From Pseudanabaena sp. M085S1SP2A07QC (GTDB lineage: Bacteria; Cyanobacteriota; Cyanobacteriia; Pseudanabaenales; Pseudanabaenaceae): a stretch of 64,000 bases of DNA. Each line of letters starts with the position of its first letter. Position 1 is the first letter of the stretch. Below the pieces are notes generated by a model that saw only the letters and a program-made list of their open reading frames with translations, was not told where the DNA came from and searched no databases. The position numbers were made by a program, and so were the translations under genes. The stretch lies in assembly GCA_020404895.1 (NCBI GenBank), contig JADBWK010000064.1, positions 1-64,000 of the forward strand, written 5' to 3'. Positions 1,662-29,884 of this stretch are shown in pieces.

Positions 1662-4600
1662 ATGACCGACTACAATGCGATCGCTGAATCCAATAACTTC
1701 ATCATTCTGGAACAATACAGCAAGCAATCAAGAGTTAAGGAAAGCTACCAAAGCGAATACGACTTAGAGGGTGAGTTTATTCAGGATTTAGTTAATCAAG
1801 GCTATCAATACCTGCCCAGCATAACCAACCCCCAAGCCATGCTAGCCAACGTGCGGGAGCAGTTGCAGACGCTGAATAATGTGCAGTTTTCCGAAGGCGA
1901 ATGGCAGCGCTTTGTAGAAACCTTTTTAGATAAACCTAGCGACAGCATTATCGATAAAACCCGCAAAATCCATGACGACTATATCCATGATTTTACATTT
2001 GATGATGGTCGCATTCAAAACATCTATCTCCTCGACAAAAAGAACCTTGCCCGTAATAAAGTCCAAGTCATCAAGCAATTTGAACAAAAGGGTAAACAAG
2101 CCAACCGCTACGATGTCACCATCTTGGTAAACGGCTTACCCCTCGTACAAATAGAACTAAAAAAACGCGGCGTAGCAATTCGGGAAGCCTTTAACCAAGT
2201 GCATCGCTACAGCAAAGAAAGCTTTAACGCCGAACATTCCCTATATAAATATTTGCAACTATTTGTTATTTCCAACGGAACCAATACCCGCTACTTTGCC
2301 AACACCACCCAGCGCAATAAAAATAGCTTTGACTTCACCATGAATTGGGCGAAAGCCGATAACAACCTGATCAAAGACCTGAAAGACTTTACCGCCACCT
2401 TTTTCCAGAAAAATACCCTGCTCAGTGTCCTGTTGCAGTATTCAGTCTTTGATACGAGTAACACCTTACTGGTGATGCGCCCCTACCAGATTGCCGCCAC
2501 CGAGCGCATCCTATGGAAAATCAACAGCGCCTACCAAGCCAAACAATGGAGCAAAATTGAGGGCGGCGGCTACATCTGGCATACCACAGGCTCAGGCAAA
2601 ACCCTAACCAGCTTTAAAGCGGCGCGGCTGGCGACGGAGCTAGATTTTATCGACAAAGTGTTTTTTGTGGTCGATCGCAAAGACCTCGACTTCCAAACCA
2701 TGAAAGAATACCAGCGCTTTTCGCCCGATAGCGTCAATGGATCCGACAGCACTGCGAAGCTGAAGCTTAATCTGGATAAAGACGATAACAAAATCATCGT
2801 CACCACGATCCAGAAGCTGAATAACCTGATGAAAACCGAAAGCGACCTAGCCATCTACAACAAGCAGGTCGTGTTTATTTTTGATGAATGCCATCGCAGC
2901 CAGTTTGGTGAGGCTCAGAAGAACTTACGGAAAAAATTCAAGAAGTTTTATCAGTTTGGATTCACTGGCACGCCCATTTTTCCGCAAAACGCCCTAGGCG
3001 CAGACACCACCGCCAGCGTGTTTGGTCGTGAGCTACATTCCTATGTGATCACCGACGCAATCCGTGATGAAAAAGTACTGAAGTTCAAGGTCGATTACAA
3101 CGATGTGCGCCCAAAATTCAAAGCCATTGAAACCGAGCAGGACGAGCAGAAGCTAAACGCCGCCGAAAACAAACAAGCCCTATTACACCCCAATCGTATC
3201 CGCGAGATTGCTCAATACATCTTAAATAATTTCCATCAGAAAACCCACCGCTTACAAGGCAGCGCTTATCAAGCCAGTAAGGGCTTTAATGCCCTGTTTG
3301 CCGTGAGCAGTGTGGATGCTGCCAAGCTGTATTACGAAACATTTAAGCAATTACAATCTCAAGAACCCCCTCTAACTCCCCCTTTGAAAGGGGGAGAACC
3401 AGACTCAGTAAGCATCCCCCCTGTTAAGGGGGGACTGAGGGGGGTACAAAAACCCCTAAAAATCGCCACCATTTTCTCCTTTGCCGCCAATGAAGAACAG
3501 GGTGCAGTGGGAGAGATATCGGATGAAGGCTTTGATGTATCAGCCATGAACAGCAGCGCCAAAGAATTTTTAAGTGTGGCGATCGCTGACTATAACGCCC
3601 TGTTTACAACCAACTTCAGCGTCGATAACAACGGTTTCCAAAACTACTACCGCGATCTTGCCAAGCAAGTAAAAGCCAAAGAAATTGACCTGCTGATCGT
3701 GGTGGGTATGTTCCTGACTGGTTTTGATGCGCCTACACTCAACACCCTATTTGTGGACAAAAACCTACGCTATCACGGATTGCTGCAAGCCTATTCCCGC
3801 ACCAACCGCATTTATGATGCCACCAAAACCTTTGGCAATATCGTCACCTTCCGCGATTTAGAACAAGCCACCATCGATGCCATTACACTGTTTGGCGATA
3901 AAAACACCAAAAACGTGGTGCTAGAAAAAAGCTACAGGGAATACATGGGCGGCTTTACCGATGTGGTGACGGGTGAAGCTCGGCGCGGCTTTGTGGAAGT
4001 AGTCACGGAATTAGAGCAGCGTTTCCCCAACCCCGACGAGATTGTTTTAGAAAAAGACAAAAAAGACTTTACGAAACTATTTGGTGAATATTTGCGCGTG
4101 GAAAATGTGCTGCAAAACTACGATGAATTTGCCAGCCTGAGAGCCTTGCAATATGTCGATCTGAATGACCCGACGGCGGTTGAAGCCTTTAAAGCGGCAC
4201 ATTATTTAAGTGATGAAGCCCTGACGACATTGCAAACAATCAAGGTTCCGAGCGATCGCACCATTCAAGATTACCGCTCCACTTACAACGATATCCGCGA
4301 CTGGTTGCGCCGTGAAAAAAGGGAAGGTGAAAAAGAAAAATCGGCGATCGATTGGGATGATGTGGTGTTTGAAGTGGATTTGCTGAAATCCCAAGAGATC
4401 AATCTGGATTACATTCTTGAGCTGATTTTTGAGCAGAATAAAAAGAATAAAAGTAAAAGTGAATTGATCGAAGAAGTGCGCCGCTTGATTCGAGCCAGTC
4501 TGGGTAATCGAGCCAAAGAAAGCCTGATTGTGGATTTCATTAATCAAACCAATCTCGATGAGATGGCAGATAAAGCCAGTATCATTGATACCTTCTATAA

Positions 4601-14838: not shown

Positions 14839-14925
14839 CCAAACCAAGAAAAATTTTAAAAGCATTGCCTTGCAATGCTTTTAAAATTTTTCTTGGTTTG
14901 GGTTTGAGAGTAAAGCGCTGTGGGT
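14839..14925. repeat. 30-bp perfect hairpin containing the NACHT gene end, plus module
   Basis: The left arm 14839-14868 (CCAAACCAAGAAAAATTTTA, then AAAGCATTGC), the loop CTT and the right arm 14872-14901 are exactly complementary. The right arm covers the minus-strand stop (14881-14883) and the last six codons of the NACHT gene. TTTGAGAGTAAAGCGCTGTG follows, matching the module at 13430-13450. Confidence 0.9.
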
Positions 14926-17220
14926 TATTGGTAATAGCAAACTTTGCTCGATCGCTTGTCTGACAGGTTGACGCACATAGCAATCACTTTCAAGGCATTC
15001 GACTAAAAGACGATTAGCATTACAGTATTGACGTAAATGCTCAAGTTGATGGGGAGTGAGATTCCAAATTTGACCAATATTACGATTGTTGATCGTCTGT
15101 TGACGCAGGTTATTAGCCCAATCCTCCCATTTGATCTCGCTATCAGCATCTTCAGGACAAGCTTCAATTAGTTCTGTTAAAGCATCTGCCAATTGCGAAT
15201 CGACAGCTTCTTGGGCATATTCCAGAGCAAGACTAAGATCTAGTTCTAAATCAAGTCCCAGATCTTCCCCATCTTTAGTTTCTAAGGCTCTTGCCAGATC
15301 AAAAGCGAGATCAACATTGAGATTACGATTTTGACAAAGATCAAGATCAAGTACTAGGCTCCGCGCTAAGACATTAGCCAAGTTGTGAGGAGAACTCTGG
15401 GCGATCGCACGTCCAAGAGTTAGATAGAAAGCCCGTACTGATTGAATACGATCGGTCACTTGAACAGATTCTGCTTTTTGGTTAACCCATTGCAACAAAC
15501 TTTGTAATTGAGGATCACTAGCTAACAGGCGATCACAATACTCTTTCATCAATATTAGCAACTCGTCGGCTGATCGCATCATACCGACGGCAAGGCGCAA
15601 AATATCATGCCAACGTTGATCAGTAATTTTAGTCGCTAGCAATGTCAATGTATCTTGGCTGCCATTATAAACAAACTCTCTCGCTGCTAAATATTCATGA
15701 AAAGTTAAATGCGAAAAAGAATAAATTCCCTTAGCTCGTTCTACAAACAACCCATGCTGTGATTCAATCGCCCTGATAATTGCTGCACTATCGAGTTGCA
15801 AAGCATCCTCATCGGTATTTGCTTTTGGTAAATTACGAATATATTCAGTAATATAGCTTTCCAGATCGACTTGCCGAAAAAAGTAATCTCCTTGATAAAA
15901 TGTTGTGCAAGCAACTTGGGCTAACAAATCTTCTTTACGTTGCATCGACAAATTTTTATAAATTTGATGCCGTTCAATATTGCGTTTGGCATCCCATTTT
16001 TTAAGCAGTACGTCCAACCCTTCTCGATAGAGCTCTGAACGGTTAGTAGGGAAATCACCAAATTCATCGAACACTAAACACAATAGAGTCAGCAGTAACG
16101 GATTAGTAGCCAATTCTTGAATAGGGCGATTGTCTTCTACTTTTCGCAAAAAAATCTCAATATGTCGGGAATTATTAAGAAACCAACGCTGGGCAAATTG
16201 CGAAATTTGCAATGGTTGGAAGTTCGCAACTTCGACTTCAGTGAACTTCTCAAATATATATTCCTGCGATCCCAAGCGACTGGTAATCACAAAACGATTG
16301 GTATAGAATTGCTCCGAAAAACTCCGTAAATCTTCAAGCACACGATGCAAATCATTTTCGCGAACTTCATCCAGTCCATCTAAAAATAGAATCGCTCGAC
16401 CTTGTTGTAGAAGCTGTTTAACATTTGCCTCATTACTAATGTTATAAGCGCATAAGTCTTGAGAGATATAATCTAATAACAGTGGCTGAGATTCTGCGCC
16501 TGCATACTGACGCAATGTCACAAAAATTGGAACCAAATCACTAAAGATATCGCCTTGCGAACATTTCAGGGCTGTATATTTTAATAGCGTCGTTTTCCCT
16601 GCACCTGGTTTACCTAGCAGCATCAGTTTACTGTAGCGATTTAGAGCTTCCATACTAGAAATACGATCTTCATTGATGAGTCCCATCTCAATGCGATCGC
16701 GTCCATGATAAGTAGCCAAAAAATCAGCAATTCCCAAACGACGGCGGCTGGTAATTTTTTCTAAAACATCTGTACCTGTATAAATATTTTCCAGATCAAT
16801 CGGATGCGACATATCCAACACTCGCATGGTAGCACAGCGCTCTTGGATTAGTTGACGACTGCGATGGCGTAGTTGCTGCACCAGTTCTTCAATGTTGATG
16901 TCCGAGGCTACACCTTGACTAGATATAGATTGGGTCGCAAGAAATAGGTTTTGCTCATTTTGTGAACTGGTTTCTGCGTCTAAAAAATTTTGCAAAATAT
17001 GTAAGAGACGATTATTTTTGCCAGGTCCCTTACCACTAATGTCAAATTTTCGATAAATTTCTCCCATCCGCTTGCGATAGGCTTCTTCAGAAATGCCTAA
17101 AAAGCTAGCAACTTCACGATCTTCACGATCTTCCCCAAATCGCAATAGGAAAACACTTTCCTGATCAGCAGAAAGCTGATGGGTTTGCGCCATTCGCATC
17201 AGAAATTTTTGGGGAAACAT
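14881..17220 (-). CDS. NACHT-domain NTPase with N-terminal HTH
   Basis: A 779-residue STAND NTPase of the bacterial NACHT group. An N-terminal helix-turn-helix-like region (LSADQESVFLLRFGEDREDR, then EVASFLGISEEAYRKRM) precedes a linker. The NACHT core follows, with Walker A LMLLGKPGAGKTTLLKYTAL (about residue 200) and Walker B AILFLDGLDEVRE (about 275). Downstream are the winged-helix and superstructure helices (SFSHLTFHEYLAAREFVYNG). An Asp/Leu-rich stretch (LDLDLCQNRNLNVDLAFDLA) comes before a conserved C-terminal domain. Related bacterial NACHT proteins protect against phages; a role here is inference. It lies 46 bp downstream of the alpha/beta hydrolase on the same strand. Confidence 0.88.
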   Translation of the reverse strand: MFPQKFLMRMAQTHQLSADQESVFLLRFGEDREDREVASFLGISEEAYRKRMGEIYRKFDISGKGPGKNNRLLHILQNFLDAETSSQNEQNLFLATQSISSQGVASDINIEELVQQLRHRSRQLIQERCATMRVLDMSHPIDLENIYTGTDVLEKITSRRRLGIADFLATYHGRDRIEMGLINEDRISSMEALNRYSKLMLLGKPGAGKTTLLKYTALKCSQGDIFSDLVPIFVTLRQYAGAESQPLLLDYISQDLCAYNISNEANVKQLLQQGRAILFLDGLDEVRENDLHRVLEDLRSFSEQFYTNRFVITSRLGSQEYIFEKFTEVEVANFQPLQISQFAQRWFLNNSRHIEIFLRKVEDNRPIQELATNPLLLTLLCLVFDEFGDFPTNRSELYREGLDVLLKKWDAKRNIERHQIYKNLSMQRKEDLLAQVACTTFYQGDYFFRQVDLESYITEYIRNLPKANTDEDALQLDSAAIIRAIESQHGLFVERAKGIYSFSHLTFHEYLAAREFVYNGSQDTLTLLATKITDQRWHDILRLAVGMMRSADELLILMKEYCDRLLASDPQLQSLLQWVNQKAESVQVTDRIQSVRAFYLTLGRAIAQSSPHNLANVLARSLVLDLDLCQNRNLNVDLAFDLARALETKDGEDLGLDLELDLSLALEYAQEAVDSQLADALTELIEACPEDADSEIKWEDWANNLRQQTINNRNIGQIWNLTPHQLEHLRQYCNANRLLVECLESDCYVRQPVRQAIEQSLLLPITHSALLSNPNQEKF

Positions 17221-18754: not shown

Positions 18755-19969
18755 ATGATTGCTATGACAGGTTCCTTGCCTAACTCAGACCTTGTGTCTA
18801 ACAACTTGACGGACGGACAAGTAGTGAGGAATGCCACATTACATATCCTTTTAGCTGCTATGCGCGTCATGAGTCGTTCTACGGGAGTGATCCGCGTAGA
18901 GACAAAATATCATCGGTGGAAATTATTACTTACGGGTGGAGGACTAGTATTAGCAGAAGAAGAAGGGCAAGTCATGCCCACATTGGTTCGCAAATACAAC
19001 AGCAAAGGCATTAATTTTTCGCGTATTCCTGAATGGGAGCAGCGTCAAAATAATCGACCTTACTGTTATCCTTTTGTGAGCAATGTTTACAAAAAACATC
19101 CCGAAATTACTAAGGAAGTTTTAAAAGAAGTTATCTTAGAAAATTTGTTGTCTTTGCATTTAGAGGATGGATTCTCTTTTGTATGGAAGCCCGCCGAAGA
19201 GCTGCAAATTAATCTACCTGTTTGGCAGTTATCGGTAATCGAAAATAGTATCGCCAATGAAGTAAGGCAATGGCAAAAATTTGATTGTGTAAAACATCCT
19301 TACCAATTAGTGCAACTTATTGATGCGGCTAATTTACTGGCAAGAGTGGGCAACGATAATTTCCCGCTCTTTGCTAAGGTGACCACGGGGCAATATCGAA
19401 TCTGTGCGATCGCCGATACTTTTAAACAGCCGATTTATCGCACAGCCTTATTGCTAGACAAGTTAGCACAAAAAAATATTGTGTCAATTGTGCCACTGGA
19501 AGAGCGGAAGTCTGACAGTAATATTGGCGTTCGGCAAAATGTATCTGCACCAAAAAATGTCAAAGATGAACCTAGGGTTTTTATCGTTGATGACTCACCT
19601 GTTTTATTGCAACAAATGCAAAGACTGTTAATTAGTTGGGGTTATCAAGTTGATTTTACTGATGATGCTGAAGCAGCTACTGACAGAATCTTAGAATACA
19701 AGCCGACTATTGTTTTTATTGATATAAATATGCCAAGTCTAAATGGCTTTGATTTGATCAAACAAATTCGTCGTCAACGGGAATTAGCTTCGTTATCTTT
19801 GGTATTAGTTACTGCTGAGAACAGTATGACTAATAACTTTAGGGCAAGATGGGCAAATTGTCGTTTCCTAGCCAAGCCAAGATCATCATCTGACACTCCA
19901 AAATTTCGCGACGAATTACGTAACTTATTAAGGGAGCTTGCGCCTTTGTCAACAGACACCCTAGTCTAG
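18755..19969 (+). CDS. PatA/PixG-type response regulator (PATAN-like region + REC)
   Basis: A 404-residue regulator. The N-terminal about 270 residues form a PATAN/DUF4388-like region (HILLAAMRVMSRSTGVIRVE, KLLLTGGGLVLAEEEG), followed by a CheY-type receiver. The receiver has acidic pocket FIVDDSPVLL, phospho-acceptor Asp in TIVFIDINMPSLNGFDL, the Thr/Ser position LVLVTAEN and the conserved Lys in RFLAKPR. PixG/TaxP1/PilG proteins of Synechocystis control type IV pilus phototaxis. It is the first gene of a taxis cluster (REC, CheW, receptor follow), 244 bp upstream of the next gene. Confidence 0.88.
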   Translation: MIAMTGSLPNSDLVSNNLTDGQVVRNATLHILLAAMRVMSRSTGVIRVETKYHRWKLLLTGGGLVLAEEEGQVMPTLVRKYNSKGINFSRIPEWEQRQNNRPYCYPFVSNVYKKHPEITKEVLKEVILENLLSLHLEDGFSFVWKPAEELQINLPVWQLSVIENSIANEVRQWQKFDCVKHPYQLVQLIDAANLLARVGNDNFPLFAKVTTGQYRICAIADTFKQPIYRTALLLDKLAQKNIVSIVPLEERKSDSNIGVRQNVSAPKNVKDEPRVFIVDDSPVLLQQMQRLLISWGYQVDFTDDAEAATDRILEYKPTIVFIDINMPSLNGFDLIKQIRRQRELASLSLVLVTAENSMTNNFRARWANCRFLAKPRSSSDTPKFRDELRNLLRELAPLSTDTLV

Positions 19970-20213: not shown

Positions 20214-20591
20214 ATGAGCGAGCATTTTTTAATAATTGATGATTCCGCAATTCAGAGGCATTTGTTAAGTTCTTTCTTAAAAGATTTTGGGCATACAGTA
20301 GATTTCTGTGAATCGACTATTGGCGCTTTAGATAAAATCATCAACAATTCCTATACAGCTATTTTCTTAGACATTGTATTGCCAGATCAAGATGGTTATA
20401 AGTTTTTGCGAGAACTGCGATCGCAACATCAACTTGCCGATCAGTACGTGATTTTGTGCTCAACCAAAAGTACCAAACTCGAGATTGACTATGGACTAAA
20501 ACGTGCTAAAGCTAATGACTATTTGCCCAAACCAGTTAGTCGAGAGTCATTGTCTGAAGTTTTGAATAAGTTGCCCCAACGAGTGAAATGA
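20214..20591 (+). CDS. CheY-like response regulator (PixH/PilH type)
   Basis: A stand-alone 125-residue receiver. Acidic pocket FLIIDDSAIQR, phospho-acceptor D53 in AIFLDIVLPDQDGYKF, Ser/Thr position LCSTKST and the invariant Lys in NDYLPKPVSRESL are all present. There is no output domain, so it would signal by protein contact, as PixH/PilH do. The stop overlaps the start of the CheW gene by 4 nt (ATGA), showing tight coupling. Its partner kinase (CheA/PixL) is not in this window. Confidence 0.92.
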   Translation: MSEHFLIIDDSAIQRHLLSSFLKDFGHTVDFCESTIGALDKIINNSYTAIFLDIVLPDQDGYKFLRELRSQHQLADQYVILCSTKSTKLEIDYGLKRAKANDYLPKPVSRESLSEVLNKLPQRVK

Positions 20592-21172
20592 GCATTTCTG
20601 AGATGAGCCAAGCCAGCGCAGCTGAGCCACTACTTGATCAGCTATTCGCACCGAGTAACCGATATATTGTGGCAAAAGTTGGCGATCGCACAGTTAATTT
20701 TCCCGACAAATTAGTTTCGGAAATTATTATTATTGATCGCAATGCAATTGTTGCTTTACCCTTTTATGAAACTGCAATCATTGGGGTAATGCATCATCAA
20801 GCAAATGTAATGCCTTTACTGTTATTACGATTGCTAATGGGGGAACAACGCACTTTAATCACGGAATCTTTGACGGTGGTGAGACTGAGTAAACTTGCCG
20901 ACAATTTGGGCAACAAAAATCTGGGTGGGGTTGGGGTAATTGTAGATCGGGTAATCGGTAGCCTTACTATTGATGAGCATCAAGATCAGCTTCAGCAATC
21001 TTCAGATGTAGATCAGCTAACGTTTTCATCGATCACCGATGCTAAATATGCAAAAAAAATAAGTCAAACAGTAGCGAATATTAAGGAGACCGAGTATACT
21101 CCCATTGAAATTATCCTATCAAGTATTCCTAGTCATATTTGGCAACCTCAACGCTGGCAGATATCTAAGTAG
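20588..21172 (+). CDS. CheW-like adaptor (PixI/PilI type)
   Basis: A 194-residue CheW-domain protein that would link the receptor to a CheA kinase. Typical segments are RYIVAKVGDRTVNFPDKLVS (strand 1), IIGVMHHQANVMPLLLLRLL (the GxxxxxGxxxPVxDL region) and VGVIVDRVIGSLTIDEHQ. It lies between the CheY-like gene (4-nt overlap) and the large receptor gene. The C-terminal about 20 residues extend past the domain. Confidence 0.9.
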   Translation: MSISEMSQASAAEPLLDQLFAPSNRYIVAKVGDRTVNFPDKLVSEIIIIDRNAIVALPFYETAIIGVMHHQANVMPLLLLRLLMGEQRTLITESLTVVRLSKLADNLGNKNLGGVGVIVDRVIGSLTIDEHQDQLQQSSDVDQLTFSSITDAKYAKKISQTVANIKETEYTPIEIILSSIPSHIWQPQRWQISK

Positions 21173-21288: not shown

Positions 21289-24200
21289 ATGCATATGGCA
21301 AGCACATCTAAAAGAACCCCAGCGACTTCTTCAGGCAAGAGCAATCAGGCATCTTCAAAGCGATCGCCTAAATCGCCAAACGCCCCCAAACCTAATAAGT
21401 CAAGAGGCTCAATGGGACTGGGATTGCTGCTGATTGCGATCGGCACATCGCTAATAGGCTTAGGTGGCCTAGGATATTGGTTTTATCAAGAATTACTAAG
21501 TAGTGCTCGACGAGAAGTTGATACATCGGCTGAAGCGCAGGCTCGTCAAATCGACGCTAGGCTCTCAGATGTTAAGACGACAGTTGATGAAGTTGCAGGT
21601 GGGGCAAAGATCCTATCCCAGCAACCTTCAAAGCCCAAAGGCTATGAACCATATCAACGTCTGATTGTCGATGGATTACAAAACAAGAAATCCATCGCAG
21701 GTATGGGGGTTGCCTCAAATGACAACTTACTATTTGCTCCAGCTAAGCCTCTTGTCCCCTATGTATGGAGGGAACAGTCAGGCTTAAAGACTGAAACGGC
21801 TGGTCAAAAGCTGGTAGCCCCAAATGATAAATTTTTGTCTGGAGATCGCCCTGATATTCAAAAAGCGTCATTTTATCAAGACACTCTTAAGGGCCAGTCC
21901 GCTTGGTCACAGCCCTATACCGCATTGGGTAAGACATTAATCACTTACAGTGCTCCCATCAGCGATGGACAGAAAGTAGTGGGGATTGTCAATGCCGATG
22001 CGATCGCTAGTGAGCTTTTGTCATTAGTAGATACTGCTTCATATCAAGATACTAGCAATGAAAGCAAGATTGGCTTTGTCGTGGCTAATAGCAGTGGCAA
22101 AGTAGTTACGGCTTCCTATAAGTTTCAGGCAACGCAAACCCAAAACCCAGCGATCGCTGAGGCTCTCACGAGCCTCGTTCAACAAGCTAAAGCTAAACCG
22201 TCAGGAATTGTCCAAACTGGTGGAAATCTCTGGGCATACCGCAAAATCGAAGGCAGCGATTTGCTATTTGCAGCCCAGTTGCCCGAATCAGAAATCACCA
22301 ATAAGCTAATGCTTCCAGTCGGTGTTGCGGCTGTTAGTATCAGTGCGATTTTGGCGATCGCCATATTATTATTCGTCAACAGGCTCAAAAATCGACTTAA
22401 GCCCCTTACCGAAGAATGCGATCGCTACTTGAGTCAGCTAGGAAATTCAGGTGTAAATATTGCACCAGGTAAAGATGAAATTGATCATCTTGGAATCTCG
22501 CTTAAGAATACCTTCCAACAGGTAAAAAACAATGAAATTAGTTTGCGTAACGGATTGAACCAAACATTATCATCATCGAATGATGATATATCGGCAGTAG
22601 AACAGCTCCAGCAAAATTTCGTAGAAACGGAGTTGATGGAGGCTGAAGTGGGCAACCTATTAGATGTTGTCTCATCTATGGAAGAGGGTGATCTCACAAT
22701 TGAGGCTCAAGTAAGTGATCGCGCTACAGGACTGGTCGCCGACACCCTTAACCGTCTTTGCGAAAAACTCGTAGAGATCATCTCCAGTGTCTTAGGTACA
22801 GCCAAACAGGTAGTCCAAGGTGCAGCCGATCTTGAAGAATTAGCCAAAACTGTCGTGTTAAACACCGCCGAACAAGCACAGTCAGTTGCGCAAGGACAAG
22901 CTCTAACGGAACAAGTTGCTGCTATCGCTGAGAGATCTTCAGCACAGGTAAACGATGCGAACCAATCACTTCAGGAAGTACGCGACACAGTAGCGTCTGG
23001 ACAAATGGCGATCATTGCCCTGACTGACAGTATTAGCGTCTTACAAACGGGTTCAGCCCAAATCGTCCAACGCATGAAAACATTGGGCGAATTCGTGGGT
23101 CTTGCAGAGCAATTTGTCCAAGATCAAGGTCAAATCGCTTCTTTGACTCAAGTTCTGGCGCTCAATGCTACCCTTGTCGCCGCTCGTGCTGCTGAACAAA
23201 AAGATCCTAAGCAATTTGCTGGTGTAGCTCGTGAATTTGAGTCGATCGCAGGGCAAGTTAATGATTTGGCAACTCAAACCAATGATGGCTTGACGGTGCT
23301 GCAACAGCGTACATCTCAAATCCAAACCGTAGTAACTGCGATCGATGCTGAAGTTCAGAATTTAAGTGGACTTGTTGCTGGTTTTACATCAGGAGTAGAG
23401 TCATCGCAATCTGCGTTCAATAGTATTCAAATAGCTACAGAAGAAGTTGTCCAAATTGGACAAGCTATTACTGAATCTAGTACCGAAATTGCTGAAGCAG
23501 CAGGCTCTACAGCTAGCTATATGAGTGAAATTGCTCAGTTAGCTGATCGCACAGCCGACCTGACTCGATCGGCTCGACAACAAGCTGAAACGATGGGAAA
23601 TCAAGCCCAGCGACTATTGCAAGGCATTCAGTTCTTCCGTCTGCCCGAATCATCTGGAGGGCTAACCCATAAGACATCTGTCAATAGTTTGTTGGATGTC
23701 TCAACAGAGTCAAGCAATACCGAGACTAATAATTTGGGTGTAGTTGTACCTGCGATCGCGGCAGCAACAGCGGTAACAGCAGTCAGCTTTTCTCCATCAG
23801 AATCATCTTTAGCAAATACATATGAAGCTGAGGAAGATAACACAGCCACCGATAATAAATATCTTGAAAATCTACTTGATGACGGTGTTAGCAGCGATCT
23901 GATCGATGATAATGCTGTTGAATCTCTGAAAGAACAAAGCTTTGATTCTATTTCAGAAAATTTCATGTCTGGAGGTATTACAGACAAGCAAAATCCAGAT
24001 TCAGCGACCTATCCTAACCTCACAGATATCTCTCTAATCGAAGAATCTCTCCTTGCGGATCTTAAACATGAAGTCTATGACGACGATAGTTCGTTTGACG
24101 AATTTTCTCCCCTTGACGATACTGAGGCAACTCTAAAAAATCAGCTAGATGGAGTGAATGAATCTTCGATCATTGAAGCTTCAAGTGATCATCTGATTGT

Positions 24201-26787
24201 TTCTGCTACATCTTCATTTTCAGAAAATATAGCTGGTGGCACTGTGTCACCACTTGCTGAAGATGCAAATCTGAACTTACCAACTTTTGTTGATTTTTCA
24301 ATTCCAGATATGGATGATGACTTCATCATCCCCAAAATGAATATAGAATCTACCCTAGACAATTCCAATTCATTTTTTGATAGCGATAATTCAATACTAG
24401 CTCCTGAAGTTAATCAAGCAGATTTTGATCCACTTGCTATGGATACTCAAACAGCAGAGGATGCCGATGAAGCTGCGATCGCAAATAGTGACAATGTATT
24501 TGAGTTAACTGAATCACAAGATTACGATCAATTCACAACCAACAACGTGATTAATGAGTCATTAGAAGAATCTGTAGAAAGTTCTTCCAATGAAGTTTTT
24601 GGCGATTCTTTTGAGATGCCTTTTGATGAGTCATTATTTGATGAAGACTTGGATGAAGCTGTTAATGATTCGGTGCATCACCAATTTGCTGTTGCTGAAG
24701 ATATTGAGGAGCCGATCCCAGAGCCCGTAAATAATGAATTAAATTATGAACTATCTGACCAAGATGTCAACAATTCATTTGATTTTGGACAACCAGTAGA
24801 TATTTATTCAAATAATCTTGAGAATCAAGGCGAATTATCTGAATTTCCTGCTCAAATCCCCGATATTTATCTTGAGGATTCTTCAGATGATGAATTTTCA
24901 GAAGTGTTTAATTTTGAAATCGGTGATGACCCAATAACAAAAGATTTATCTGAGCAGCCATCTACAGAGTTCACCTTTGAAATTGATGAAAGCTTATCGA
25001 CGGAATCATCTGATTTAGGGGCTGATTCAAAACCATTTGATTTTTCTACAGATCTTCAAGAAGCTTCTTTTGCTCCAGAAATAGCGATCGCATCAGAAAC
25101 AGATATACAATTATCGCCAGTGCTAGATCTATACGATCAGCAGTTAGGATATATTTCTGATGAACTGTCTGAAGATTTCTCTTTTGAGATAGAAGAGGAT
25201 CTGTCAACTGACCAAATGGACTTAGGTAATGACGACTTTGATTCAGCATTTACAATGTCACAACCTGAAATCGAGGACATTAGCTTATCATCCTTTCCAG
25301 AAAGTGAATCAGAGCTAGCTTTTCCTTCATTGATTGATGAAATTGAAAATCCAGAAGCTCAGTCTTCGGAAGCAATCTGGGAAACAGACGATATCGCCTC
25401 AGTTTTTGGCAAAATCCCGAACTTTCAGGAAGATTTGGCTGAAGATTCTTCATTTATAATTGATAATCTTAATACAACTTTTGTCCTACCAGACTTGTCG
25501 AGTGTGGCAGAGACTAGTGATGCATTGATGGGTGAAGAATTTAACTTTGACATAACTGATGACGATTCCAACTTTAATATTTTCACAAATCCTTTGGAAA
25601 GAGTTGTCGAGTATTTAGTGAGTGACTCAGGGCTTAATAACAGTGAAGATCCCCCCGACTCTGTCTCTGATGCAATCTCGCAAACTGACTTGATCGCACC
25701 AGATTTAGAAGAGATTGGAGTCCTTGAAGAAAATTTGGCTGAAAGTCAGCCTTCTTCTGTGGCTGACAGCTTTAGTTCGGTCTTTGCTCTGCCAGACTTA
25801 TCGCTGATGGAAGAATCTGACGAAGCATTAATGGATGAAGCCTTTGACTTTGGCATGTCTGATGACCATGATAATGCGGATAATTTTGGCGTTTCAATAA
25901 ATTCATTGGAGGAAGAACCTGCTATAGCTTCTGATGAAGATTTGCTGAATGAATCAGGCGTAGATTTATCCTCAGTATTTAATGACAATTTAGAGCAAGG
26001 TGCAGAATTAAGCTATCAAGAATTTATCAATAATTCTGAATCCAATTTTGATATTGATGATAATACCTCAACCTTCGCAGAGCTAACTGGAGGCTTGGAA
26101 TCGGAGGACGAATCGATCAAGTTTAGTGAAATCATGGATGCAGGAAACTTCACAGACGACGCTTTAGAAGAGTCAGTTATATTTGAGGCGATCGCAGATG
26201 AAACAAACGATCTAGATTTAGAATCTTCAGCAGATTCTCTAGACTTGGGTATTTCTCAGACTAGTAACTTGGGGTTAGACTCGGAATTTATGGAGTCCTT
26301 TCCCGATCTTTCTCTGGATTTTTCAGATAATTGGCTTGATAAGGTGGATGAAGATAGTGATCTAAGTAGTGCAAAATTTGCTGACTCAGATGACGATATA
26401 TCTATTGGATATCCATCTGAAGATGAAGTTAAGACTATGCCAGATGGCGAAATCTATGGGTTTGCTGACAATCTGCTGGACAGTCTCATGGATGAAGCTG
26501 ATGAAGAGTTTGCAAGTCTATCGATGGATTTACCAGACTTGCAAACATTACCTTACTTGTCTAACTTTAACGAACATTCTGTAGAGACTGAAGATAGCAA
26601 TAGTGAATTAGAAAGTGATATTGAATTTGATTTCTCTGCATTTGATTTGCCGATAGAAGATTCGATTAATTCAGCTAGAGCCGAAATCGAAGATTTTCTG
26701 TCAGGTAGTTTAGACATTGAGGAAGATAGAATTCAGAAAAAGAATCCTCCTAAGCTAGTTGAAACAGACAACTCAGGCTCAGTCTAA
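21289..26787 (+). CDS. Methyl-accepting chemotaxis protein (PixJ/PilJ type) with a giant acidic tail
   Basis: An 1832-residue receptor. A basic Ser/Pro/Lys-rich N terminus is followed by TM1 (LGLLLIAIGTSLIGLGGLGY), a periplasmic Cache-like sensor, TM2 (VGVAAVSISAILAIAILLFV, about 345-365), two HAMP-like segments (LDVVSSMEEGDLTIEAQVSD) and a methyl-accepting coiled coil with tip LNATLVAARAAEQKDPKQFA / GVAREFESIAGQVNDLA. All that ends near residue 790. The remaining about 1040 residues are almost free of basic residues and rich in Asp, Glu, Ser and Phe, with loose repeats such as FNFEIGDDP, FTFEIDESLST, FSFEIEEDLST and FDFGMSDDHD. Normal PilJ-type receptors lack such a tail. The stop lies in a 27-bp hairpin shared with the PstS-like gene. 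Confidence 0.92.
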   Translation: MHMASTSKRTPATSSGKSNQASSKRSPKSPNAPKPNKSRGSMGLGLLLIAIGTSLIGLGGLGYWFYQELLSSARREVDTSAEAQARQIDARLSDVKTTVDEVAGGAKILSQQPSKPKGYEPYQRLIVDGLQNKKSIAGMGVASNDNLLFAPAKPLVPYVWREQSGLKTETAGQKLVAPNDKFLSGDRPDIQKASFYQDTLKGQSAWSQPYTALGKTLITYSAPISDGQKVVGIVNADAIASELLSLVDTASYQDTSNESKIGFVVANSSGKVVTASYKFQATQTQNPAIAEALTSLVQQAKAKPSGIVQTGGNLWAYRKIEGSDLLFAAQLPESEITNKLMLPVGVAAVSISAILAIAILLFVNRLKNRLKPLTEECDRYLSQLGNSGVNIAPGKDEIDHLGISLKNTFQQVKNNEISLRNGLNQTLSSSNDDISAVEQLQQNFVETELMEAEVGNLLDVVSSMEEGDLTIEAQVSDRATGLVADTLNRLCEKLVEIISSVLGTAKQVVQGAADLEELAKTVVLNTAEQAQSVAQGQALTEQVAAIAERSSAQVNDANQSLQEVRDTVASGQMAIIALTDSISVLQTGSAQIVQRMKTLGEFVGLAEQFVQDQGQIASLTQVLALNATLVAARAAEQKDPKQFAGVAREFESIAGQVNDLATQTNDGLTVLQQRTSQIQTVVTAIDAEVQNLSGLVAGFTSGVESSQSAFNSIQIATEEVVQIGQAITESSTEIAEAAGSTASYMSEIAQLADRTADLTRSARQQAETMGNQAQRLLQGIQFFRLPESSGGLTHKTSVNSLLDVSTESSNTETNNLGVVVPAIAAATAVTAVSFSPSESSLANTYEAEEDNTATDNKYLENLLDDGVSSDLIDDNAVESLKEQSFDSISENFMSGGITDKQNPDSATYPNLTDISLIEESLLADLKHEVYDDDSSFDEFSPLDDTEATLKNQLDGVNESSIIEASSDHLIVSATSSFSENIAGGTVSPLAEDANLNLPTFVDFSIPDMDDDFIIPKMNIESTLDNSNSFFDSDNSILAPEVNQADFDPLAMDTQTAEDADEAAIANSDNVFELTESQDYDQFTTNNVINESLEESVESSSNEVFGDSFEMPFDESLFDEDLDEAVNDSVHHQFAVAEDIEEPIPEPVNNELNYELSDQDVNNSFDFGQPVDIYSNNLENQGELSEFPAQIPDIYLEDSSDDEFSEVFNFEIGDDPITKDLSEQPSTEFTFEIDESLSTESSDLGADSKPFDFSTDLQEASFAPEIAIASETDIQLSPVLDLYDQQLGYISDELSEDFSFEIEEDLSTDQMDLGNDDFDSAFTMSQPEIEDISLSSFPESESELAFPSLIDEIENPEAQSSEAIWETDDIASVFGKIPNFQEDLAEDSSFIIDNLNTTFVLPDLSSVAETSDALMGEEFNFDITDDDSNFNIFTNPLERVVEYLVSDSGLNNSEDPPDSVSDAISQTDLIAPDLEEIGVLEENLAESQPSSVADSFSSVFALPDLSLMEESDEALMDEAFDFGMSDDHDNADNFGVSINSLEEEPAIASDEDLLNESGVDLSSVFNDNLEQGAELSYQEFINNSESNFDIDDNTSTFAELTGGLESEDESIKFSEIMDAGNFTDDALEESVIFEAIADETNDLDLESSADSLDLGISQTSNLGLDSEFMESFPDLSLDFSDNWLDKVDEDSDLSSAKFADSDDDISIGYPSEDEVKTMPDGEIYGFADNLLDSLMDEADEEFASLSMDLPDLQTLPYLSNFNEHSVETEDSNSELESDIEFDFSAFDLPIEDSINSARAEIEDFLSGSLDIEEDRIQKKNPPKLVETDNSGSV

Positions 26788-26838
26788 CTAAAAGTAAGAG
26801 AACGCGAAAAGCGCGTTCTCTTACTTTTAGTTAGACTG
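26780..26838. terminator. 27-bp perfect hairpin holding both convergent stop codons
   Basis: The left arm CAGTCTAACTAAAAGTAAGA+GAACGCG (26780-26806), the loop AAAAG and the right arm 26812-26838 are exact complements. The receptor stop (26785-26787) is in the left arm and the pstS-like stop (26827-26829) in the right arm, read in different frames. It should act as a bidirectional terminator. Confidence 0.9.
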
Positions 26839-27798
26839 TATAGAAACAAATCCTAGTCTTTGAACAATCTGCTGCCCTTGAGTCGAAAGTGCAAACTCAA
26901 TAAATTGCTTAGAGACAGGACTAGTGGTCTTTTTTACACCTAAAAACAGACTGCGGTTAATTGGATATTTACCAGCTTTAACTGCATTAGTATCTGTAGG
27001 CAGAACTCCATCGATCGCAATAATTCTCACAATTTCTTGCTTCTCTACCTGTGAAACTGTGGCATAACTGATCCCGTTATCACCTAGATCTCGGAGAATT
27101 GCTGTTGTTTCGTCTTGTTTCCATGTAATAAAGTTAGGGCTATCTGGCGCGAAACTTTGACCGAGTAAAACTATATCTTGAAAAGCTTCTCTAGTTCCGC
27201 TTGTGGTAGCGCGATTAATCACTCTAATTGGTTGATTTGCCCCGCCAACCTGTGACCAGTTAGTAATTTTACCCAGATAGATATCTCGTACTTGATCCTT
27301 TGTCAAATTACCCTTAAATGGATTATTTATACCAACTACTAATGCGATCGAATCTTTAGCGATCGGCACTAATTGTATACCTGCTTGGGCTTCGGCAGCT
27401 TTGAGCGGACGAGAAGTCGCTGCGATCGCGATGCTACCATCAATGAGATTTTTCAATCCCTGATTTGAACCAGTTGGATTACCATCAGGAACTCCATAGG
27501 CGCTCGGTATGTTTGGATTAACTTGGCTAAAGTCATTACGCAGGGCTTTAATCAGAGCAACCATTGCCGTACTGCCATCTATTCCCAAAATACTAGGATT
27601 GGGCAGAGATGTATCAAGGTTTAAGTTTGTTGATGTTATTACGGGCGGGGTTGGTTGTGCTGATGAATCTGGTGTTGCCGTGGTAGCTGGTACTACTGTT
27701 GATTTTTGTTGTGAAAAAAACCAGTAGCCTCCGCCAGCAATCCCTGCTGTGACTAGCATCGACAATACTAAAACTGTAGTTTCTTTACCCTGTGACAT
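26827..27798 (-). CDS. PstS-like phosphate-binding protein
   Basis: A 323-residue substrate-binding protein with one N-terminal membrane anchor (VLVLSMLVTAGIAGGGYWFF) and a Thr/Pro-rich linker. The PBP-like domain begins LGIDGSTAMVALIKALRNDF. Phosphate-site loops include GSIAIAATSRPLKAAEAQ and NRATTSGTREAFQDIV, the TSGTRE motif typical of PstS/SphX. No pstCAB genes are adjacent, so it may serve a remote transporter or act in sensing. Expression under phosphate limitation is expected of the family but no PHO box was identified. Confidence 0.85.
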   Translation of the reverse strand: MSQGKETTVLVLSMLVTAGIAGGGYWFFSQQKSTVVPATTATPDSSAQPTPPVITSTNLNLDTSLPNPSILGIDGSTAMVALIKALRNDFSQVNPNIPSAYGVPDGNPTGSNQGLKNLIDGSIAIAATSRPLKAAEAQAGIQLVPIAKDSIALVVGINNPFKGNLTKDQVRDIYLGKITNWSQVGGANQPIRVINRATTSGTREAFQDIVLLGQSFAPDSPNFITWKQDETTAILRDLGDNGISYATVSQVEKQEIVRIIAIDGVLPTDTNAVKAGKYPINRSLFLGVKKTTSPVSKQFIEFALSTQGQQIVQRLGFVSIQSN

Positions 27799-27903: not shown

Positions 27904-29148
27904 CTATGCACTATTTTGTTCAATACTATTTAATAAATCAATTAGGCTTTGTCCAATAGCATAGGCTAGATTAACAGGAACAGCATTACCAATTTGTTTG
28001 TATTGACTTGTCAATGCTCCAGCAAATTCCCATTCATCAGGAAAAGTTTGAATTCTCGCATATTCCCTTACAGTCAGAGGTCGTGTCTCTTCGGGATGAC
28101 ATCTTTCTGTTTGTTTTTGTGCGGGAGAACAGGTCAGAGTTAAACTTGGTTGATCCCAAGCCAGTCTTCTTGCAATTCCTGTTTTACCACCCCCCAAAAA
28201 ATAACTTTTTTGCATGTATTCTCTTTGCAAATCATCTGGTAAATCCCGCCAATAACCACCTTGAGGTATAAGGTCTAATATTTCCTTTTTCTTTTTGGCG
28301 TAAGTTTGACCTTGGGAAATTGGTACATCTGTTGGATACAATTCACCAGCTTTGAGAGCATCTCTAAGCACCATAATTTTTGTGTAAGGTGTGGGCCATT
28401 TAAAATCAGCAAACTCAACTAAATCATTTCTAATGCCAATTAAAAATAAACGTTCTCTCTTTTGAGGAACTCGATAAAAGATAGCTTTTAAAACTTGTGG
28501 TTCAATCAGTGTATAACCTAGTTCATGAATAATAGATTTCATTGCGGCTAAAGTTCGACCATCATCATGCTTTAATAATCCGCGTACATTTTCACCTAAA
28601 AATACTTTGGGTTGTAATTCTTTAATAGCTCTAGCAAATTCAAAAAATAATGTGCCTCTCGCATCTTCAAATCCCAGTTTATTTCCTGCATAAGAAAATG
28701 CTTGACAAGGAAATCCGCCTGCTAGCAAATCTACATTAGCAAATTCTTTGAAATCTACATTTTTAACATCACCTTCAATTACATGCCAATTTGGACGATT
28801 AATGCGTAAAGTGTTACAAGCATTTTTATCGAATTCATTCAAAGCAATCGCATTAAAACCTGCACATTCTAGCCCGACAGCAAGTCCACCAGCACCAGCA
28901 AAAAGCTCTATTGAATTAAAAGTTCTAATAGATTTAAAAATGGTTGTGTTGCCTTCTAGATTTTGAGAAAAGATATTTCTAATTTCTTCAAAATGAAGTA
29001 ACTCAGACACTTTATATTCTTTTTTCTTAGTAATTGAATTGAATACAGGTATTATTTTTTGATTTTTCTCCCATTTCAATAATGTCGATTTTGAAACCGA
29101 TGTGATATCTGCCAAGAGTTCTGCTGGAATAAATTGCGTATCAAACAT
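27904..29148 (-). CDS. DNA (cytosine-5) methyltransferase of a type II R-M system
   Basis: A 414-residue C5-cytosine methyltransferase. Motif I SIELFAGAGGLAVGLECAGF, motif IV GGFPCQAFSYAGNKLGFED with the catalytic Cys, motif VI FLGENVRGLLKHDDG, motif VIII QKRERLFLIGIR and motifs IX-X (REYARIQTFPDEW, QIGNAVPVNLAYAIG) are present. The first about 60 residues are an extra MerR-like HTH (ELLADITSVSKSTLLKWEKN), which may autoregulate the operon. Its start overlaps the stop of the upstream endonuclease by 8 nt. Strongly AT-rich relative to neighbours, pointing to recent transfer. Confidence 0.92.
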   Translation of the reverse strand: MFDTQFIPAELLADITSVSKSTLLKWEKNQKIIPVFNSITKKKEYKVSELLHFEEIRNIFSQNLEGNTTIFKSIRTFNSIELFAGAGGLAVGLECAGFNAIALNEFDKNACNTLRINRPNWHVIEGDVKNVDFKEFANVDLLAGGFPCQAFSYAGNKLGFEDARGTLFFEFARAIKELQPKVFLGENVRGLLKHDDGRTLAAMKSIIHELGYTLIEPQVLKAIFYRVPQKRERLFLIGIRNDLVEFADFKWPTPYTKIMVLRDALKAGELYPTDVPISQGQTYAKKKKEILDLIPQGGYWRDLPDDLQREYMQKSYFLGGGKTGIARRLAWDQPSLTLTCSPAQKQTERCHPEETRPLTVREYARIQTFPDEWEFAGALTSQYKQIGNAVPVNLAYAIGQSLIDLLNSIEQNSA

Positions 29149-29884
29149 GAAAGCTGTCGAAACCTGCGTATTTTTTAAAAGATAGTAAAAATAGACTTTT
29201 TAATAAATTGTTGTCAATTGCTTTGAGTTCTTGAATAACACAATTGGATTCTTTCTCAAAATCACTACTGTTTACAATATCATCAATCACTAGCGGTAAA
29301 TTTTCGCATAATTTTTTAAAAGCTGTGCGATCACCTGTGACTAGCTCATAAAATTTATCGATAGAAACTCGACGAATTCGTTGATCCGACATGGGAACAC
29401 CGTCTAAGCTAATTTGCCAAGCTATATCTTGACTCTTCGTTGCGATCACCTCTACCAAAATACACTTAGCTCTTTCATTAGATAATAGAGTCTTCATCAT
29501 CCTCATATATGTTTTCTGTGAGGATGATGAATTCATGGTATTGTGCTTGTTTTTCATTTCTACATAACAGCAAGTCTCTTCATTAACTATGTCATATCCT
29601 GAAATTGGTATATGCCATCCACTACCGATATAGCGAAATATATTTTGATGAAAATATCCGATATGATTTGTATTCGATTTGTCTACTTGTCTGACAACTT
29701 CATATTCGATTACATCATCAATACTTTTACCATAAACTTTAGAATCAAATGTCAACTTAATGGGATCTATTAAATTTTTATTAAACTCCAATAAGTTAAC
29801 TTTAAACCTATATTTATCAACAGTTTCTTTGACATGATTATAAAAGTCCTCATTGTTAATAAAACCAAGATTATAATCTCTCAT
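29141..29884 (-). CDS. Eco47II-family restriction endonuclease
   Basis: A 247-residue type II nuclease. The N terminus MRDYNLGFINNEDFYNHVKE, the segment LIDPIKLTFDSKVYGKSIDD, and the core GYDIVNEETCCYVEMKNKHN with TMNSSSSQKTYMRM are recalled from Eco47II/Sau96I-type enzymes. D plus E-x-K form the PD-(D/E)XK site. Enzymes of this family recognise GGNCC; the same or a related site here is inference. It is the first gene of the operon with its methyltransferase, so control must delay nuclease expression, perhaps through the methyltransferase HTH. Confidence 0.82.
   Translation of the reverse strand: MRDYNLGFINNEDFYNHVKETVDKYRFKVNLLEFNKNLIDPIKLTFDSKVYGKSIDDVIEYEVVRQVDKSNTNHIGYFHQNIFRYIGSGWHIPISGYDIVNEETCCYVEMKNKHNTMNSSSSQKTYMRMMKTLLSNERAKCILVEVIATKSQDIAWQISLDGVPMSDQRIRRVSIDKFYELVTGDRTAFKKLCENLPLVIDDIVNSSDFEKESNCVIQELKAIDNNLLKSLFLLSFKKYAGFDSFHV

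Follow-up and report, generated by a model that had tools for sequence, protein, structure and literature searches.

Chemoreceptors are taken to act via CheA and CheW, and in Pseudomonas aeruginosa the Pil-Chp system (PilJ, ChpA, PilG, PilH) exerts a chemotaxis-like control of type IV pili. In this bacterium FimL, bound to the hub FimV, holds PilG at the pole (PMC10519157). FimV and HubP combine a periplasmic domain, a membrane helix and a mostly unstructured, about 25% acidic cytoplasmic region with short helices; they are poorly conserved, vary in size between species (the repeats also vary in HubP) and organise the poles by diffusion and capture (PMC12918733). In cyanobacteria, the pilGHIJ locus of Synechocystis sp. 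PCC 6803 (slr1041-slr1044) encodes in this order a PatA-like regulator, a CheY-like protein, a CheW and an MCP; the latter, PilJ, is also known as Ctr1 or Slr1044, and CheA is encoded elsewhere (slr0073/slr0322) (PMC7076178). No relevant paper on PilJ in Pseudanabaena, or on acidic tails of MCPs, was found in our search of the literature.

The same gene order was recovered in the window, i.e., the whole stretch of 64,000 nucleotides from Pseudanabaena sp. M085S1SP2A07QC analysed here, in which the receptor gene closes the four-gene set pilG-pilH-pilI-pilJ as a single 1832-codon ORF with no internal stop. The features of this locus are the following:

18755..19969, plus strand: pilG-like response regulator, 404 aa, with a C-terminal REC domain (Pfam)
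20214..20591, plus strand: pilH-like stand-alone receiver, 125 aa (Pfam Response_reg)
20588..21172, plus strand: pilI-like CheW, 194 aa (Pfam CheW)
21289..26787, plus strand: pilJ-like chemoreceptor with acidic tail, 1832 aa (single ORF)
21655..21999, plus strand: periplasmic PDC sensor domain, residues 123-237 (PF22673, E 2e-9)
22606..23652, plus strand: signalling region, residues 440-788 (PF00015; region identities and relative rates)
23671..26784, plus strand: acidic tail, predicted to be disordered, residues 795-1832, starting from about 789 (composition, AlphaFold2, dN/dS)

The receptor is a PilJ-type MCP chemoreceptor, as it has a PDC sensor, an MCP signalling domain (residues 590-751; PF00015 scored above the cut-off in the genome search and slightly under it for the whole protein) and the pilG-pilH-pilI-pilJ order. 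Hydrophobic stretches read from the sequence at about residues 45-65 and 345-365 form the membrane helices flanking the sensor. The N-terminal part of the pilG-like protein may be of the PatA/PATAN type, by analogy with Synechocystis Slr1041. In many Pseudanabaena genomes, pilG is immediately preceded by another pilG-like gene of about 400 aa (41-46% identical); in the window, this place is occupied by a hydrolase gene. Further upstream of the operon, positions 14881-17220 (minus strand) encode a NACHT-type NTPase-like protein, the C-terminal part of which contains a stretch rich in Leu/Asp. On the other side, a PstS-like phosphate-binding protein gene (26827-27798, minus strand) is convergent with pilJ, and the long, perfect-looking inverted repeat between them (26787-26835) resembles a shared bidirectional terminator. 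Positions 27904-29884 (minus strand) carry a cytosine-5 DNA methyltransferase-like gene adjoining a 247-aa gene, a possible restriction partner.

As in Synechocystis sp. PCC 6803 (PMC7076178), CheA is not encoded next to pilGHIJ. The window genome encodes a CheA homologue (PilL) of 891 aa with Hpt, HATPase, CheW and REC domains on contig G000:C103, where it adjoins a second MCP of 541 aa (minus strand; second MCP at L082:4467-6092, CheA at 1761-4436). The genes for this second MCP (MCP2) and CheA lie directly 3' of pilJ in five other genomes (G004, G015, G017, G022 and G025), and the operon is thus split in the window genome, with these two genes moved apart from pilJ onto another contig. The earlier note had proposed that the tail could replace a missing CheA docking. 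This is not supported: since a CheA homologue is present in the same genome, the tail is no substitute for it, and genomes devoid of CheA, CheW and PilG keep the tail (see below).

Asp+Glu make up 26% of the 1038 tail residues, Phe 6.5% and Lys+Arg 1.9%; the net charge is about -252. The description of an acidic and repetitive extension of a taxis receptor in the earlier note was therefore accurate, and this extension is not the product of a frameshift, a gene fusion or an erroneous assembly join, since the same continuous ORF is present in 24 other genomes from separate assemblies (in the 26th genome of the genus, G023, the receptor gene is split across two contigs, and in G021 it lacks its 5' end). 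No Pfam, NCBIfam or PDB profile matched the protein after residue 790. We found tail profile matches in 26 of 26 Pseudanabaena genomes, including P. biceps PCC 7429, P. mucicola FACHB-723 and Pseudanabaena sp. UWO311, and in none of 12 genomes from the other genera of the family. The tail ranges from 848 to 1299 residues within the genus, with 24-30% Asp+Glu, 0.8-2.4% Lys+Arg and a net charge of -233 to -340. In the window genome, the receptor gene was the sole profile match, i.e., the tail has no paralogue elsewhere.

Among 386 cyanobacteria, only four members of the genus and one marginal match responded to the profile, and nothing convincing was recovered from the 382 others, in agreement with the unusual character first attributed to this tail; the match in G301, a distant cyanobacterium (E 6e-4), resembles low-complexity similarity. 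When the receptor core was searched for across the phylum, only two candidates were scored in each genome, so that the negatives of this search are weak. Whereas the present receptor bears a tail of about 1040 residues, most receptors of the sister genera, encoded in the same operon, stop 8-55 residues past the signalling domain (this comparison was made with members of the family). Three PilJ homologues from two other genera (G033, G034 and G035) also carry acidic tails, of 248-342 residues. The latter gave no profile match and no detectable similarity with the tail of Pseudanabaena, and may be early forms of it or, possibly, independent gains. We also considered a basic N-terminus specific to tailed receptors as an internal partner of the acidic tail, and ruled it out because the N-termini of tailless relatives are basic too.

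What is conserved genus-wide in the tail is its composition, its size class and six to eight short motifs, with blocks such as IEESLLADLKxEVY, SATSSF...VDFxIPD, SDNWLD, FADNLLDSL and ARAEIxDFLSG. Over 25 tails, 24 columns are invariant and cluster at predicted helices and at the VDFxIPD block. The conserved elements and the two near-duplicates, as they occur in the window, are:

24028..24078, plus strand: conserved predicted helix IEESLLADLKHEVYD, residues 914-930 (invariant E, L, L, E; AlphaFold2 helix at tail positions 120-136)
24148..24378, plus strand: most conserved block of the tail, residues 954-1030 (SATSSF and VDFxIPD motifs)
25480..25539, plus strand: near-duplicate 1, FVLPDLSSVAETSDALMGEE, residues 1398-1417 (sequence comparison)
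25783..25842, plus strand: near-duplicate 2, FALPDLSLMEESDEALMDEA, residues 1499-1518 (sequence comparison)
26302..26349, plus strand: conserved motif SLDFSDNWLDK, residues 1672-1687 (invariant Trp)
26443..26514, plus strand: conserved predicted helix YGFADNLLDSLMDE, residues 1719-1742 (conservation and AlphaFold2)
26659..26724, plus strand: conserved C-terminal predicted helix SARAEIEDFLSG, residues 1791-1812 (A, E, I, F and L invariant in 25 of 25 tails; tail helix 998-1010)

AlphaFold2 run on the 25 aligned tails, a shallow alignment, gave a mean pLDDT of 37.7 with helices at the conserved blocks only; the tail is thus predicted to be intrinsically disordered, with short helices at the conserved motifs. 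The two longer near-duplicates reported earlier are real. The recurring F-[NTS]-F-[ED]-I unit reported with them is present in the window above the shuffled expectation, with four occurrences of F[NTS]F[ED][IVL] (mean 0.1 and maximum 1 over 300 shuffles) and three of the full 8-residue unit F-[NTS]-F-[ED]-I-x-[DE]-[DE], but it is not conserved genus-wide: a substantial share of the 25 tails lacks the F-x-F-E-I unit, among them those of several genomes with an intact pathway. Self-comparison of the protein revealed no internal repeat, and tandem repeats were detected at the DNA level; in-frame tandem duplications specific to each tail are present in many of them, with periods that are all multiples of three.

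The substitution rates indicate that the tail is under purifying selection across the genus. Its dN/dS was 0.23-0.35 in nine of ten close pairs, in which the signalling domain and the sensor gave 0-0.05 and 0.10-0.20, respectively; the tenth pair, G006-G007, was too alike for this estimate. Higher values, about 0.4-0.5, were obtained in several pairs for the middle part of the tail, and the rate counts in the tail are weakened by its gappy alignments.

Three genomes that are 99% complete, the near-identical G006 and G007 and that of P. mucicola FACHB-723 (G018), have no intact orthologue of PilG, PilI, MCP2 or PilL; the proteins that best match PilL belong to other kinases, with an identity of about 30% at most. 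PilH is absent at the pilJ locus, the only place where it was looked for. In the three of them, the hydrolase gene found before pilG in the window is directly followed by pilJ, with a pilI relic in between (in G007, 77% nucleotide identity and 44 gaps). The sensor, the membrane helices and the tail, with its invariant residues, are nevertheless retained beside this relic, in receptor ORFs open over 1873 (G007) and 1496 (G018) codons. A tail evolving neutrally over 0.1 substitutions per site would escape stop codons with a probability of about 1e-6 (G007) or 7e-5 (G018). As G006 and G007 are near-identical, these genomes represent two independent cases, not three. In the CcsB tree, G006 and G007 nest with G015, G022 and G025, in which the pathway is present, and G018 sits apart; the AU test against a single loss was borderline (p 0.0496), so that the pathway appears to have been lost twice independently, at borderline significance. 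P. mucicola often occurs together with colonies of Microcystis (PMC6829522). Taxis may have become dispensable for this reason, although we offer this as a suggestion only.

The signalling domain had a different fate in the two lineages. In G018 it was deleted in frame: the part with the sensor and membrane helices, which shares 50% identity with residues 3-466, leads straight into a tail matched at both ends. This deletion was observed in one assembly, within a 141-kb contig and with the frame intact; the gene lies at L069:4208-8698, and a tandem repeat of 54 bp is peculiar to its tail. The signalling domain of G007 shares 70% identity with that of the window, as against 84-92% in genomes with similar sensor divergence, and it accumulated 50-54 changes versus 0-2 in the sister G025. 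The sensor and the tail were far less skewed between these two genomes, and with three outgroups the signalling domain differed significantly from the sensor as well as from the tail (p 0.012 or lower). The long G006/G007 branch was likewise recovered in the signalling-domain tree. The tail skew of the G007 lineage was no different from that of the sensor. Its first conserved third underwent 38-51 changes versus 11-17, not significantly above the sensor, and this part of the tail may have served the lost partners.

Since the sensor, the membrane anchor and the tail outlast the chemotaxis partners, the tail has a role that is not exerted through CheA; its independence from CheA is well supported, and it probably has a job of its own. 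We infer that a scaffold or partner-binding role is the best explanation. At or before the base of the genus, a PilJ-type receptor would have gained an acidic, disordered cytoplasmic tail of 850-1300 residues, in which short conserved helical or hydrophobic motifs embedded in the acidic matrix would capture cytoplasmic clients. The most likely clients would be components of the type IV pilus apparatus or of its positioning at the pole or septum; the PilB- and PilT-class ATPases are retained in the pathway-loss genomes, so that the type IV pilus is available as a client. The PDC domain and the membrane helices would position or gate the tail from outside, and the scaffold would run in parallel to CheA signalling without needing CheA. 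After loss of the partners, the sensor, membrane helices and tail would be kept, while the signalling domain decays or is deleted. We give about even chances to this explanation as a whole, a membrane-tethered multivalent scaffold made of a disordered acidic tail and parallel to CheA signalling.

The small acceleration in the first conserved tail block after pathway loss, together with the position of the tail on a receptor of a chemosensory operon, could suggest that it is an accessory of CheA signalling, docking CheA, CheW or PilG or tuning the packing of arrays. However, the tail and its invariant residues persist in G006, G007 and G018, from which PilG, PilI, MCP2 and PilL have gone, and most members of the sister genera use the same operon with hardly any extension past the signalling domain. 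As the sole role of the tail, this function is largely refuted, and we consider the accessory reading improbable. It could also be argued that the receptor of the pathway-loss genomes is just decaying after a recent loss and that its tail is uninformative on function. The visibly relaxed or missing signalling domain and some acceleration elsewhere on the G007 lineage would fit such a decay, but the neighbouring pilI is already a gapped relic while both receptor ORFs remain open, and dN/dS in the G007-G025 pair is ordinary for the sensor (0.13) and 0.46 for the tail. We regard this as the least probable of the readings considered.

A less improbable alternative, though still an unlikely one, is that the tail is a passive acidic bristle, a spacer or a solubility element, of which only the composition matters and which has no specific clients. 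Such a tail would likewise look like acidic disorder, and the fast evolution of the middle part, the in-frame tandem duplications and the fixed overall charge are what one would expect from it. In contrast, the clustering of the 24 invariant columns at predicted helices and at the VDFxIPD block speaks against this reading, and the tail of G018 was retained though the signalling domain to be spaced is gone. Evolution appears to have run the deletion experiment twice here, keeping a sensor and a huge tail, predicted to be disordered, without CheA and CheW. If the tail is indeed a scaffold, this would provide a case of a receptor whose output changed from kinase control to scaffolding, and a testable route to pilus positioning in cyanobacteria.

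The closest functional likeness of this receptor could be with FimV/HubP of gammaproteobacteria, with which it has in common a periplasmic domain, a membrane anchor and a long, acidic, mostly unstructured cytoplasmic region (26% acidic, with disorder predicted from the low pLDDT) that bears short predicted helices and varies in size. It does not belong to that family: we found no match to the periplasmic LysM domain, whose place is taken by the PDC domain, nor to the C-terminal FimV (TPR) domain in NCBIfam or Pfam at E 0.01. The present receptor differs from FimV/HubP by its PDC sensor and, usually, its MCP signalling domain, and no sequence relationship was detected between them. We know of no FimV/HubP hub in cyanobacteria. 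Our tentative proposal, for which we would put the chances somewhat below even, is that a chemoreceptor was turned into a CheA-independent transmembrane hub, in which a sensor and an acidic disordered tail joined in a single protein would organise the cell pole or the machinery of the type IV pilus, and that its chemotaxis half was discarded in some lineages. Whereas the hub and the receptor are separate proteins in the Pil-Chp system of P. aeruginosa, which likewise controls type IV pili, they may be one and the same protein in Pseudanabaena.
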